The notes: generated from the letters alone by a model not told the origin. A DNA stretch of 64,000 nt from Bacteroidota bacterium (GCA_021796215.1 JAJYOK010000001.1:372001-436000), one strand, 5' to 3'. Positions 17,665-22,516 are shown, counted from the stretch's first letter. Translations and numbers: made by a program.

Positions 17665-18720
17665 TCAATGATATTGAACGCTGAATTTTTTAACCGCGTT
17701 CACAAACGCTTTCACATTTTCGACCGGTGTATCAGGAAGTACGCCGTGGCCGAGATTAAAAATATGTCCGTTTCCTTTTCCAAATTTTTTTAGAATCGTT
17801 TGCACCCCTTGTTCAATTCGCTCCGGCGTTGAATACAGCATTGCCGGATCGAGATTTCCTTGCAGTCCGACGTAACTTCCTACCATTTCACGGGCTTTGC
17901 CGATGTCAATAGTCCAATCGAGTCCGACAACGTCAGCGCCGCTGTCTGCGATTTTTTCCAGCGAATGTCCGCACTCTTTGCAGAAAATAATTGCCGGCGC
18001 GCCGTTTCTTTTTACCAGTGAAAGAATTTGCTGAATGTAACGGAGCGAAAATTCTTCAAATTCTTCCTGTGCTAAAACTCCTCCCCATGTATCGAAAATC
18101 TGAATTGCCTGCGCACCGGCTTCAATTTGTGCGGACAAGTATGCGGCAACTGCGCGGGCGAGTTTATCCAAAAGAAGATGTGCATCTTTCGGGTGAGAAA
18201 AAACCAGCTCTTTGATGTACCGAAAGTTTTTTGTTCCCTTTCCTTCCACCATGTATGTCGCAAGCGTCCACGGCGATCCGGAAAATCCTATGAGCGGTAC
18301 TTTGTTGTTCAAATTTTTTCGCGCTGTTCGAATTGCATCGAGAACGAATTTTAATTTTGAATGAGGATCGGGAACTGGGAGCGCATCAATTTGGGTGCGT
18401 GAACGAATAGGAGAAGAGAAACGCGGCCCGCCTTTTCCATCTTCGATGAAAAGCTGCATTCCCATTGCTTCCGGCACTACGAGTATGTCGGAAAAAATAA
18501 TTGCTGCATCAACGCCGATAATATCAACGGGTTGAATGGTAACTTCGGAAGCGAGGTCGGGGGTTTTGCAGAGCGTTAGGAAATCCACTTTTTCACGAAC
18601 AGCACGGTATTCGGGAAGATAGCGGCCCGCTTGCCGCATAAACCAGACCGGCGTTCGTTCGACATCTTCACATTTGCATGCGCGAAGAAAAAGATCGTTT
18701 GATGATTGTTGAAATACCAC
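17665..18720 (-). CDS. hemE: Uroporphyrinogen III decarboxylase
   Basis: 351 residues. Decarboxylates the four acetate side chains of uroporphyrinogen III. The signature RTPVWFMRQAGRYLPEYR (about residues 22-39) carries the substrate-binding Arg residues; IIFSDILVVPEAMG and FSGSPWTLATYMVEG are also family motifs. It follows the foreign-looking cassette (18761-21601) that separates it from hemD. About 40 bases lie between them, so it could be read through the cassette or from a separate promoter. Confidence 0.97.
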   Translation of the reverse strand: MVFQQSSNDLFLRACKCEDVERTPVWFMRQAGRYLPEYRAVREKVDFLTLCKTPDLASEVTIQPVDIIGVDAAIIFSDILVVPEAMGMQLFIEDGKGGPRFSSPIRSRTQIDALPVPDPHSKLKFVLDAIRTARKNLNNKVPLIGFSGSPWTLATYMVEGKGTKNFRYIKELVFSHPKDAHLLLDKLARAVAAYLSAQIEAGAQAIQIFDTWGGVLAQEEFEEFSLRYIQQILSLVKRNGAPAIIFCKECGHSLEKIADSGADVVGLDWTIDIGKAREMVGSYVGLQGNLDPAMLYSTPERIEQGVQTILKKFGKGNGHIFNLGHGVLPDTPVENVKAFVNAVKKFSVQYH

Positions 18721-18760: not shown

Positions 18761-19396
18761 TTAAATATACAAATTTTTTGGAACAAATTCTGAGTTTTGA
18801 ATTCGATGGCGTTCAAGCACTCTCGCAAAATCAGTCATTGGATGCAGCTTCATAATGGGAATGTAAAAACATTCGTAGCTGTCTGATGAGCATAACTTTG
18901 ATCCGAAATCTTTTTTCGGCGCGTGTTCCACTTCGTCGCTCGTTGCAAATCCGCAAAGGATGGCTTGCGTCCCGACGGGAATATCTGCTGAATCGGTGTG
19001 GGGAATGTTGAGAATAATTTGAATGTAAAACGGGGGCTTTCTTTTTTCTTTGTAATCCGCGCGCACAAGAAGATGGAGATGCGTGCTGAACGGGAATGCC
19101 GATGTTTTGATTTCAACATCACGAAAGTCGCTTTTCCCTTTGTTGTTTCCGACATTGTTCTTTCGGAAATCGCCGTAAAAATATTCCGCAAAGGCAAGCT
19201 CGCCTAAAATACCTGTGAGTGTATCGAACGGAGAAGCTTTGGTTCGTTTTACTTCTACTGCACTGACAAACTTAGTTGCTTCGTCGAGCATTTGCCGGGA
19301 AATGGTAACAACGTCAAGTGAGTACTTACGATGTTTTAAGGAGTTTTTTATTTTAAAGATGAGGGAAATATTGGACAGAAATGATTTTTTCTTCAA
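18761..19396 (-). CDS. Putative PD-(D/E)XK-type nuclease in MTase/DUF3800 cassette
   Basis: 211 residues if it starts at TTG 19396; the first ATG (19288) would leave 175. No strong ribosome site supports either start, so the N-terminus is uncertain. The central region has GELAFAE (E66) and then KSDFRDVEIKTS, with Asp90/Asp93 and E95-x-K97, a pattern typical of the PD-(D/E)XK restriction-endonuclease fold. The assignment is by motif only. It overlaps the 3' end of the DUF3800 gene by 44 bases in another frame. With the methyltransferase two genes upstream, the simplest guess is the cleavage subunit of a restriction-like system. Confidence 0.5.
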   Translation of the reverse strand: MKKKSFLSNISLIFKIKNSLKHRKYSLDVVTISRQMLDEATKFVSAVEVKRTKASPFDTLTGILGELAFAEYFYGDFRKNNVGNNKGKSDFRDVEIKTSAFPFSTHLHLLVRADYKEKRKPPFYIQIILNIPHTDSADIPVGTQAILCGFATSDEVEHAPKKDFGSKLCSSDSYECFYIPIMKLHPMTDFARVLERHRIQNSEFVPKNLYI

Positions 19397-20384
19397 ACCA
19401 AGGCGTTACGTCAAACTTTCTTTTTAATTTGTACTTTACAGCCCCGATTAATAAATCAACAAACTGAACAGCTTTGTTTTGCCCGCTAACTTCTGATGAT
19501 ATTTTTTTGATTTTGTTTAAGACAAATCCAAAGTTTTCTTTCTTTAGATAATTGAAAAACTCTTTTTCAAATCTTGCACCTTTAGTGCCATACTCATCAA
19601 AATGAAGACTTGCTTCACCGATATAATCCAAAATATCACCAACTAGAAACTGATATGCTTGCTTATAGAACGATTTCGGATATTGATAACCATTAGAGGT
19701 CAAATATTTTTTAACAAAACAAATCGCGGCAAACTCATAATCAATTTTTGCAAGTTTGTTAAGAATAAATTTATAGTTTCGGGAATCAATCCTTCTAGAA
19801 CTTAACTCTCCTTCTGGAGGATAACCTAATTTGTTATTTATTGCTACGAATAACTCGTTTAACTTTTTAATATCTTCATTATTTACTATCAGAGCACCTA
19901 CAATAAAGTAGGGCTCTCGATCGTTTATGACAGGAGTTCCCGACTCATCTAAGAATATTCTCTTCTTACCCTTGTTGTCATTCTTAGTTGTTAAATTCTT
20001 TAGAAGTTTATACTTCTTTGCAATAGCTTTTAAATTTCGTAAATGTTTGTGTTCTGCACGAATCCGACTTCTGTAAAAGTTTAATGTGCAGACAACGTCT
20101 TCCTCGTTTACTACAAAAAATATTCCTTTATTGGCATCAGTCCCAATGTAAAATTCTTTTTCCTCTTTAAACGGTACAACGATACTTTGTTGAAAGCCAC
20201 CCCTTTTATAATCCCTTTTGCGTAACTTAGGACGAATTTCATCCAAGACAAAATCAATTTTTCTTGCATTATTTTTGCCACAACAGTGCTTAATCATGTA
20301 GTCCAGAAACACTTTTTTGTCGTGTTCCAAATCGCTACCGTTTTTTGGCCTCCACAGAAGAGCTTTTTTATGAGTTATTTTCAT
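19353..20384 (-). CDS. DUF3800-domain protein with N-terminal extension
   Basis: 343 residues. Residues 140-330 match DUF3800, an RNase H-like fold of unknown function often found in defence and mobile contexts: KRIFLDESGT (D146), HFDEYGTK (D263) and QFVDLLIGA (D310) give the expected acidic triad. Residues 1-135 are a basic extension I do not recognise (a Cys pair at 34-35, many Lys/Arg); it may bind nucleic acid. ATG 20384 overlaps the methyltransferase stop by 4 bases, so the two are translationally coupled. The coding is visibly more AT-rich than the surrounding hem genes. Confidence 0.75.
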   Translation of the reverse strand: MKITHKKALLWRPKNGSDLEHDKKVFLDYMIKHCCGKNNARKIDFVLDEIRPKLRKRDYKRGGFQQSIVVPFKEEKEFYIGTDANKGIFFVVNEEDVVCTLNFYRSRIRAEHKHLRNLKAIAKKYKLLKNLTTKNDNKGKKRIFLDESGTPVINDREPYFIVGALIVNNEDIKKLNELFVAINNKLGYPPEGELSSRRIDSRNYKFILNKLAKIDYEFAAICFVKKYLTSNGYQYPKSFYKQAYQFLVGDILDYIGEASLHFDEYGTKGARFEKEFFNYLKKENFGFVLNKIKKISSEVSGQNKAVQFVDLLIGAVKYKLKRKFDVTPWFEEKIISVQYFPHL

Positions 20385-21601
20385 TGCTTGTAAAACAAAA
20401 CGATACGATTTGAATTCGTCCCATCCTTATTATTCTCCACGCCCCAAATGTTTGCAGTCTTTGTAAATTTCTGTTTGTTAATTAAAAGAGCTTCGCTCTT
20501 AAATCCCGCATTGTTACCAATTGGAATTATCAAATCTTCCATTTTTATTGTTTTATTCCTAATCTCTCCAACCTCAAAGGCAACCCATCCGCCATTTTTT
20601 GTCACCCGATATAATTCCTTAAATACATTCAACATCATATTATTCCAGTCTTCAACATTCTTAGAAGTCTTAATGCTGTTAGCTACTGCTTTCGCATCAA
20701 TGCCGTTGAACCAACAACGCAACCAATTATCACCGTAGTAATCGATCGTATTGAGGAAATGCGGAGAAGTGATCGTCAGTTCGACAGAATTGGACTTAAT
20801 TGCACCTGTAAGTTGTGCATCGCAATTCAAGAATCTTGCTGTTCGCGAGACTGTCCAAAGAGAGCTAAGCTGTTCTTTTGTCAAAGTTCGAATTAAACTC
20901 TTTGACTTTTTAAGAATGATTTCACGAACATTGCGATATTCAGGTTTTTGATTCAGCTTTTTGTTAATTCTTATTTGACTTTGAGGACTTACAGCTTGAT
21001 TGGGGGGAAGGGTATAAACGGAGAAGAAGCCTTTTGAATGACCTGTTAATCTATTGGTAGCGACCATTTGTATCCATCGATCCAGTTCGTCGAGGCCATT
21101 TTCTCTTTTTCGATTCAAAAGATATTTTCGTAACGATAAGATTTCAACTAATGTATCTTTATGATAAAACATTGACAAATCAATATCTGGCTTTAATGAT
21201 TTGTCGTTCCTAATTTTATATAAACGTTCTTTCAGTTTATCTAAATTGGGAGTTCGTAGCCTCGCTTCGCCTAAAATTCTGCTTAATGGGTTAATATCGT
21301 TGGCAATAATTTTACGTCCCAGCAACGCCGCTTCTAAAACTGTTGTGCACCTTCCGCTAAATGGGTCATAAACAACGTCATTAGGTTTTGTCATCCATTC
21401 AATGAAGAAACGTGGCAACTCTGCCTTAAAGCAGGCTCGGTAGGAAACTTCGTGGATTGAAGAGGATTGACGTTGTTTTGATGTCCAAAATTCGCCAATA
21501 TATCTGTTTACCGAGTAATTTCCTACCCGATAAACATCTTTTTTAGATTGTCTTCGAATGAGCGAATTTCTGGAAATTTGATCAAATATTACTTGAGACA
21601 T
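20381..21601 (-). CDS. DNA methyltransferase (N4-C/N6-A type) with altered motifs
   Basis: 406 residues. An S-adenosylmethionine-dependent DNA amino-methyltransferase by its motifs: SAM-binding motif I DPFSGRCTT (79-87), followed by GRKIIANDIN, and catalytic motif IV TSPHF (278-282) followed by a DNWLRCWFNG segment. Motif I precedes motif IV with about 190 residues between, leaving room for a target-recognition region. Two usually invariant positions differ: Gly to Cys at 85 (DPFxGxGTT expected) and Pro to His at 281 (SPPY/F expected). It may be inactive or divergent. First gene of the inserted cassette. Confidence 0.8.
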   Translation of the reverse strand: MSQVIFDQISRNSLIRRQSKKDVYRVGNYSVNRYIGEFWTSKQRQSSSIHEVSYRACFKAELPRFFIEWMTKPNDVVYDPFSGRCTTVLEAALLGRKIIANDINPLSRILGEARLRTPNLDKLKERLYKIRNDKSLKPDIDLSMFYHKDTLVEILSLRKYLLNRKRENGLDELDRWIQMVATNRLTGHSKGFFSVYTLPPNQAVSPQSQIRINKKLNQKPEYRNVREIILKKSKSLIRTLTKEQLSSLWTVSRTARFLNCDAQLTGAIKSNSVELTITSPHFLNTIDYYGDNWLRCWFNGIDAKAVANSIKTSKNVEDWNNMMLNVFKELYRVTKNGGWVAFEVGEIRNKTIKMEDLIIPIGNNAGFKSEALLINKQKFTKTANIWGVENNKDGTNSNRIVLFYKQ

Positions 21602-21625
21602 AATAGTGTTATATAAATTTACACA

Positions 21626-21654
21626 AATCTATATATTGGACGGTTTATAGTCAA
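21626..21654 (-). promoter_or_regulatory. Possible promoter of the MTase cassette
   Basis: On the minus strand TTGACT (21649-21654) lies 17 bases upstream of TAGATT (21626-21631), about 25 bases before the methyltransferase ATG. The -35 matches the sigma-70 consensus at 5 of 6 and the -10 at 4 of 6 positions. It lies in the 96-base AT-rich gap after hemD and could drive the cassette independently. Confidence 0.35.
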
Positions 21655-21697
21655 GCTGTCTGTCTAGCTTCGGCTAAAGATGTAATCATTTTCGATT

Positions 21698-22516
21698 TTA
21701 AAAACTCTCTGAATAAAACTTCACAATCGCGGCAACAAGTCCCGATGTTGTTGGCTGTTCGGCAACAATTTTTGCTTGGAGCCCAGCTGCTTGAATTGTA
21801 TTCGCGGTTGTGTTTCCGATTGCTGCAATGACACTCCGGTGAAGCTCATTTGCCGGGATTACCGCTAAAAAGTTTGTAAAACTTGAGGGACTGAAAAATG
21901 TTAACACATCAATTTCTCTTTCGCGGATCAAGCGGGAAATTCTTTCTGTGTCTGATGTCGGCGGCGCAGTTGTTTCATACACAACTACTTCGTCAACAAG
22001 TGCGCCGTGTTCGCGTAATGTAGAAGGCAGAGTAGCGCCGGCAAGATTACCTTTCGGGAATAGAAATCGCCGTCCCGATATTGCTTCTTTGCTCAATACG
22101 ACGGCAAAATGTGTTGAATCGGCGATGTTTCCAAAGTCATCTTCGTCCGGCAACGGTTCAGTGTGGATTGCAAATTTCCTGACGCTTTGCTCTGTTTTCT
22201 TTCCTATCACATAAATTTTTTTGCGCGACAATGTTTTGTGGAATTCAGATTTTTTTTCTTTCATCCTTCCGAAAAAGAATTCCACAGCGTTCTGGCTTGT
22301 GAGAATGATAGCATCGTATGTTTCGATCCGGCTGATTGCATTGTCGCAGCCGCTCCACGACGAAGGCGGAACGATCTGAATTGTCGGGAACAGCTCGACA
22401 GTGGCGCCAAGCTGTTCAAGCAGTTTTACAATTTCTGCGGCCTGCTCGCGGGGACGCGTGACAAGAATTGTTCTTCCGGTGAGCGGTTGAGATGGTATCG
22501 GAGAAAATTTCTCCAT
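21698..22516 (-). CDS. hemD: Uroporphyrinogen III synthase
   Basis: 272 residues. Cyclises hydroxymethylbilane with inversion of ring D. Sequence conservation in this family is low, but the opening GRTILVTRPREQAAEIVKLL, ELFPTIQI, YDAIILTSQNAVEFFF, and the late VLTFFSPSSFTNFL and AIGNTTANTIQAAGL motifs are typical. It is 4 bases downstream of hemC, which settles the assignment. The foreign-looking cassette starts 96 bases after its stop. Confidence 0.93.
   Translation of the reverse strand: MEKFSPIPSQPLTGRTILVTRPREQAAEIVKLLEQLGATVELFPTIQIVPPSSWSGCDNAISRIETYDAIILTSQNAVEFFFGRMKEKKSEFHKTLSRKKIYVIGKKTEQSVRKFAIHTEPLPDEDDFGNIADSTHFAVVLSKEAISGRRFLFPKGNLAGATLPSTLREHGALVDEVVVYETTAPPTSDTERISRLIREREIDVLTFFSPSSFTNFLAVIPANELHRSVIAAIGNTTANTIQAAGLQAKIVAEQPTTSGLVAAIVKFYSESF

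Follow-up and report, generated by a model that had tools for sequence, protein, structure and literature searches.

A chimera of two putative restriction-modification modules between hemD and hemE of a Bacteroidota bacterium

Genes and features of the locus

The window analyzed here is a stretch of 64,000 nucleotides from a Bacteroidota bacterium (GCA_021796215.1, JAJYOK010000001.1:372001-436000), whose genome is referred to below as G000. The locus lies between the haem genes hemD and hemE and comprises a DNA methyltransferase (MTase) gene, a DUF3800 gene and a small gene, with the following features:

21698..22516, minus strand: hemD, native flank; its last codons are touched by a breakpoint at about 21713
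20381..21601, minus strand: DNA MTase, an SPPF-type amino-MTase of 406 aa (PADLOC MTase_II, PDLC03325); of foreign origin and a member of the DUF3800-linked clade, with motif I FSGRC and motif IV SPHF
21347..21349, minus strand: MTase codon TGC (Cys85), the second Gly of motif I changed to Cys
20756..20767, minus strand: MTase motif IV, SPHF
19353..20384, minus strand: DUF3800 protein, N-terminal domain (residues 1-140) and predicted RNase HII-like domain (141-340)
18761..19396, minus strand: small candidate restriction endonuclease of the PD-(D/E)XK type, with invariant D90 and E95-I-K97
19309..21712, minus strand: replaced segment, foreign DNA between both ends of the DNA homology to the congeners G002 and G001
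18761..19308, minus strand: remaining native sequence of the small gene, collinear with both G002 and G001
17665..18720, minus strand: hemE, native flank

An earlier note on this DNA had described three genes here, and on re-reading the three ORFs were found between hemD and hemE at the same positions and on the same strand, with the MTase and DUF3800 genes coupled by ATGA, in which the MTase stop overlaps the DUF3800 start. The small ORF is open up to an in-frame TTG (19396) inside the 3' end of the DUF3800 gene, its sole upstream start, and the next in-frame ATG lies at 19291; the 44-nt overlap of the small and DUF3800 genes that the note gave thus holds if this TTG serves as the start, and not otherwise. 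Its remark that the first two genes are AT-rich relative to the hem flanks was borne out by per-gene GC and by a GC profile across the region: the GC content is 0.369 in the MTase gene and 0.326 in the DUF3800 gene, versus 0.462 in hemD and 0.463 in hemE. The native part of the small gene has a GC content of 0.429, and since per-gene GC is low in the MTase and DUF3800 genes alone, only these two are compositionally foreign.

The MTase matches PADLOC MTase_II PDLC03325 (E 3.6e-141) as well as Pfam N6_N4_Mtase, and contains both AdoMet motif I, with the Gly-to-Cys change, and catalytic motif IV. The FSGRC version of motif I is unique to the window MTase, the other aligned family members having GRG; Cys85 may weaken AdoMet binding or may be an assembly error. 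The middle protein scores 35.6 bits with Pfam DUF3800 (PF12686), above the cut-off of 21, and corresponds to the PADLOC candidate PDC-M04A (PDLC04353), component A being the only part of PDC-M04 that was matched. For the small protein, there was no above-chance family match in Pfam, PADLOC or NCBIfam. Rfam gave no match between 17 and 23 kb, and hence no DUF3800-linked RNA motif was recognized there.

Replacement of the resident MTase by an MTase-DUF3800 unit

In both available congeners of G000 (G001 and G002, genus g1), the slot reads hemD, MTase, small gene, hemE, with no DUF3800 gene. The window MTase shares 72% identity with the MTase of an MTase-DUF3800 pair in G011, versus 57-59% with the MTases of G001 and G002. 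At the DNA level, homology between the window and G002 ends at 21713, in the last hemD codons, and restarts at 19308, and between 21502 and 19345 the window aligns to G011 rather than to the congeners; the 3' breakpoint lies between 19345, the end of the match to G011, and 19308. The gap in congener homology and the G011-like sequence inside it therefore indicate that about 2.4 kb has been replaced. The replacement removed the resident MTase together with the native start and first codons of the small gene, residues 1-29 of which are now read from foreign DNA, and resulted in one MTase beside two unrelated nuclease candidates. The trio of G000 is thus a chimera of two restriction-modification (RM) modules with one MTase family in common: the incoming MTase and DUF3800 genes stem from another lineage and overwrote the methylase of a resident RM pair. 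As an account of the gene history, replacement of the resident MTase by a foreign MTase-DUF3800 unit can be held with high confidence.

The earlier note had described the three genes as one cassette, with DUF3800 as an obligate middle partner. DUF3800 is not obligate, and the three genes do not form one conserved system. Homologues do co-occur elsewhere as MTase plus small gene and as MTase plus DUF3800, but the full trio was seen in G000 alone, where it arose by replacement at the MTase; the congener slots hold MTase and small gene without DUF3800, and in three other genomes of the order MTase and DUF3800 form a separate two-gene unit. That the trio nevertheless works as a single system of three components, in which two nucleases cooperate, is highly improbable, even though the genes overlap on one strand and selection on what is native in the small gene is not relaxed along the window branch: the combination was seen in a single genome, and the replacement deprived the small gene of its native start and first codons. 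In the native part of the small gene, the pairwise dN/dS is 0.114 against G002, and 13.5 synonymous and 4.5 non-synonymous changes fall on the window branch versus 25 and 8 on the G002 branch, with no excess of amino-acid changes on the former; a recent event would leave no signal in this test, and the selection may predate the replacement.

It is also improbable, although less so, that the locus is a decaying remnant with a broken MTase motif I, a small gene deprived of its native start and no active product. The FSGRC motif, found in no other aligned member of the family, and the lost start would fit such decay. However, all three frames are intact and of full length, the catalytic acids of DUF3800 are present, G000 still avoids GGCC strongly (see below), and the Gly-to-Cys change is a single base that could be an assembly error.

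Of the 98 genomes of the order, 4 encode a full-length DUF3800 including the N-terminal domain (G000, G011, G445 and G443, where it is cut by the contig end), and in all four loci the gene immediately follows a family MTase. In the MTase tree, the four DUF3800-linked MTases form one clade (support 100/98) apart from the resident MTases, and their hosts span two families. The three DUF3800-linked MTases that cover the position have SPHF as motif IV, and the other aligned family members have SPPF. Both genes of the unit are AT-rich in each host (GC 0.30-0.38), and the resident MTases of G443, G445 and G002 have a GC content of 0.46-0.50. In G011 the pair stands without the small gene. A pattern scan for DUF3800 gave one match in genome contigs, at the G011 locus, and none in viral contigs; the N-terminal domain alone, searched for in 395 genomes of the phylum, was recovered from G000 only.

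Each of the four MTase-DUF3800 units occupies a slot that in relatives contains a solo MTase belonging to the same family. In the case of the hem slot these relatives are G004 and G012 (genus g3), and the slot is therefore not a new one; the slot of G011, beside a DUF2911-like gene, holds a solo MTase in G003, G016 and G013 (G005 shares one of the flanks), and the slot that lies upstream of nadC does so in G031, G059 and G444. In the nadC slot of G443 and G445, the resident MTase is kept in tandem with the incoming unit; the second MTase of G443 appears broken, but there is an assembly gap (N) at this point and no conclusion was drawn. We attribute the location of the units to recombination through the homologous MTase gene; if the resident and incoming MTases have a common target, the host would already be protected. 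Because solo copies fill the hemD-hemE slot in another genus (L048 of G004 and L117 of G012), the MTase in the haem operon is old. Other solo family MTases (L046, L082, L090, L094, L101, L105 and L106) are embedded in conserved metabolic operons, such as nadC-nadA and glycolate oxidase-like genes, and the family looks like a persistent orphan methylase across the order.

Nuclease partners of the MTase family and avoidance of GGCC

The MTase family is present in 47 of the 98 genomes of the order, in many cases as a solo gene. Three different nuclease partners alternate beside MTases of this clade, namely the small protein, a PADLOC type II restriction endonuclease (PDLC03511) and DUF3800. The small gene adjoins a family MTase in six other genomes of the order, and the pair was found outside the hem slot in G008, G010, G021 and G029; the same adjacency occurs in 4 of 7 IMG/VR loci, and a fifth contig has both genes nearby. 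The PDLC03511 partner is a GYPD...ECK protein of about 220 aa (E down to 1e-44) encoded in G433, G358, G034, G462 and, as a fragment, G027, as well as in the more distant G286, G381 and G333. Since the same MTase family pairs elsewhere with this endonuclease or with the small protein, DUF3800 stands in the position of a restriction enzyme. Linkage of the MTase to exchangeable nuclease candidates also supports the description of the cassette as RM-like in the earlier note. Within genus g2, the family MTase occurs solo, with the small gene or with DUF3800 (L012, L017, L047 and L089), which provides a natural comparison set for nuclease exchange.

The PADLOC systems composed of MTase_II PDLC03325 and REase_II PDLC03511 share the MTase family (E 1e-140 to 1e-153) and likewise carry the nuclease gene directly after it, whereas the nuclease in G000 is DUF3800 and/or an unrelated PD-(D/E)XK protein, and PDLC03511 had no match in G000. 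Among 14 control genomes, that of Methanocaldococcus jannaschii alone matches both PDLC03325 and PDLC03511, which would be consistent with a two-gene RM system there. Some loci depart from the pairwise arrangement. G024 has a small gene without an adjacent MTase (L018) where G029 has both, and the sole family MTase detected in G024 is a solo one on another contig. In G358 and G247, an extra small gene belonging to no family (70 and 202 aa, respectively) lies between the MTase and REase_II genes (L049 4805-5673 and L060 5107-5715).

GGCC is the lowest of the 256 tetramers in G000 (O/E 0.30 in 464 kb including the window) and the most avoided one in a pool of six nuclease-linked relatives (O/E 0.33), versus an O/E of 0.73-0.83 in sets of genomes with a solo MTase of the same family. 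Across 35 genomes, the median O/E is 0.30 in the 16 nuclease-linked and 0.80 in the 19 solo ones (Mann-Whitney p 1.8e-5), GGCC ranking top of 58 palindromes; the contrast persists in a GC-adjusted permutation (p 2e-4) and in the low-GC subset alone (p 0.026). These tests used partial sequence samples and are not independent, because the genomes are related. In G011, where DUF3800 is the sole detected partner, the O/E is 0.30, versus 0.67-0.80 in congeners with a solo MTase. The two tandem cases avoid GGCC weakly (0.61 in G445 and 0.70 in G443), which would be expected if their units are recent or else is a point against this target.

All flanks of GGCC are depleted in G000, and WGGCCW is avoided in genus g1, whereas GGWCC is not specifically avoided there; GGCC is therefore favored over GGNCC, which was set aside as the first-choice site. 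CTAG, CATG and GATC were rejected as targets, being avoided also with a solo MTase or discriminating more poorly. ATCGAT is strongly avoided too (O/E 0.24 in G000, 0.13 in G001 and 0.50 in G002), and CCWGG stands at about 0.40 in genus g1, which suggests further restriction specificities in this genus.

Judging from these sequence statistics, GGCC is the probable target of the family. The avoidance could instead come from another GGCC-specific system or from tetranucleotide bias, with the MTase family recognizing a different site. C5-MTase genes (PF00145) are present in G000, G001 and G002 and could target GGCC; G048, which has no family MTase and two C5-MTases, avoids GGCC as well (0.17); and the nuclease-linked genomes are lower in GC. 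We nevertheless consider this explanation rather unlikely, because the contrast survives GC adjustment, holds within genus g2 (G011 and G021 versus G003, G016 and G017) and holds where no C5-MTase is present (G011, G008, G010, G021, G445 and G443 yielded none), and because genus g1 shows no specific avoidance of GGWCC. Consistent with a shared target, the MTase region around residues 176-222 is conserved equally between the DUF3800 clade and the rest (0.79 versus 0.76).

GGCC-methylating m4C enzymes are known from M.SuaI/SuaI, M.CbeI/CbeI and the orphan M.Ssp6803II, with which the window MTase would share the predicted target and the amino-MTase chemistry. It does not belong to the M.SuaI family, since the MTase model has no match in S. 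acidocaldarius, and the motif of M.CbeI is DPPY (PMC3425538), in contrast to SPPF/SPHF in the family of the window MTase. Methylation by M.Ssp6803II controls hemJ in Synechocystis (PMC11662147); the location of the MTase described here in a haem operon may be a coincidence.

Predicted nuclease folds and the proposed RM unit

Searching the PDB by sequence, whether with DUF3800, the small protein or the alignment of the latter, returned nothing useful. Foldseek matches of the small-protein model (pLDDT 75) to the PDB were weak, and VIA-align was therefore used; its structural matches were almost all PD-(D/E)XK nucleases, led by the SPARDA nuclease subunit (Z 6.5), DpnI (6.1) and the N-domain of Eco15I (6.1), with Hjc, NaeI, EcoRV and MutH further down. 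Because these Z scores are below 8, the fold call leans on the consistency of the list and on the motif D-x4-ExK, in which D90, E95 and K97 are invariant in eight sequences. The model would share its fold with DpnI, NhoI and the Eco15I N-domain, Hjc and the SPARDA nuclease subunit (Z 5-6.5), but no sequence similarity to any of them was detected. The proposal that the small protein is a nuclease candidate is thereby strengthened: it is probably a PD-(D/E)XK nuclease, and probably represents an unannotated restriction endonuclease family.

Residues 141-340 of the DUF3800 model match RNase HII, H2 and HIII, the best alignment, to RNase HII, reaching Z 11.2 over 165 residues at 3.6 A, whereas the N-terminal 140 residues are poorly modelled. 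The RNase H folds score well above the other structural matches and are none of the five restriction-enzyme classes listed further below, although the absence of a class from the structure list is not by itself proof that DUF3800 lies outside it. D146, E193, D263 and D310, which would form the acidic active site of the predicted RNase H fold, are invariant in four homologues, whereas G011 has Ala in place of E147. The usual substrates of RNase HII-like folds are RNA/DNA hybrids.

Instead of being the restriction endonuclease, DUF3800 might be an RNase-type effector, acting on RNA or RNA/DNA hybrids and released or activated only when an MTase-linked signal changes, the pair being a defence or addiction module of another logic. 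The closest folds are in keeping with this, as are the listing of the protein as defence candidate PDC-M04A, the MTase-free homologue on Leptospira plasmids and the DUF3800 of Cas12a2 loci, proposed to participate in interference or crRNA processing (PMC10910872). We regard this as unlikely, since DUF3800 takes the exact place that two unrelated restriction endonuclease families have next to MTases of this family, and GGCC is avoided in G011 to the same degree as where other nucleases are the partner.

The Leptospira protein is full-length and 37% identical to that of G000, so that the link between MTase and DUF3800 is not universal and DUF3800 can exist outside RM. Its gene comes after a DUF4917 gene and is followed by Phd/PIN toxin-antitoxin genes (L064 5980-6984, and L065). 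In other genomes, DUF3800 genes were read from the sequence within RM islands of the type I-like (hsdM/hsdS) and type III-like kinds (L020 7149-7853 and L063 5700-6794), and hence the domain recurs next to RM genes. The Cas12a2-associated TPR-DUF3800 proteins (PMC10910872) likewise place an RNase H-fold DUF3800 beside a defence effector, but G000 has no CRISPR components at the locus and the partner is a DNA MTase. The G000 protein contains the same domain as PDC-M04A and Pfam DUF3800 (PDLC04353, PF12686) and differs in its extra N-terminal domain and in an MTase partner that is fixed within the order. We know of no characterized function for PDC-M04A or DUF3800, and a literature search on DUF3800 together with restriction returned no relevant paper.

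We favor, with a probability of roughly 0.6, a GGCC-type type II RM system with exchangeable nucleases, in which DUF3800 occupies the restriction-enzyme slot; a role of DUF3800 itself as the restriction nuclease is about as likely. The resident unit between hemD and hemE was an MTase with a small, probable PD-(D/E)XK endonuclease, and the AT-rich MTase and DUF3800 genes, elsewhere a free-standing two-gene RM-like pair, recombined into its MTase locus. If the G000 proteins are active, as we infer, we predict that the MTase modifies a single target, in all likelihood yielding N4-methylcytosine in GGCC, and that DUF3800 uses its RNase HII-like domain to cleave incoming DNA lacking this methylation, which the small endonuclease may still do as well. 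More tentatively, and at somewhat less than even odds, DUF3800 with its N-terminal domain would be a GGCC-specific type II restriction endonuclease, the first with an RNase H fold, and would spread together with its own SPHF-type MTase through recombination into resident MTase genes that have this specificity, so that a host protected by an orphan methylase gains or swaps a nuclease. A 2014 review of type II restriction endonucleases lists the PD-D/EXK, HNH, GIY-YIG, phospholipase D (PLD) and half-pipe classes and its text does not contain the term RNase H; relative to that review, such a fold would be new.

DUF3800 is a domain of unknown function met in defence and CRISPR loci, and its position here gives it a direct, testable role, as next to a single MTase family it stands in for restriction nucleases of two unrelated kinds. 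The analysis also yields a concrete site prediction, GGCC, for the whole MTase family and, in the small protein, a candidate for a new, unannotated family of PD-(D/E)XK restriction endonucleases. If confirmed, the proposed role of DUF3800 would add a new catalytic fold to the type II restriction enzymes, and orphan methylases would be safe docking sites for incoming restriction modules, easing the exchange of nucleases.
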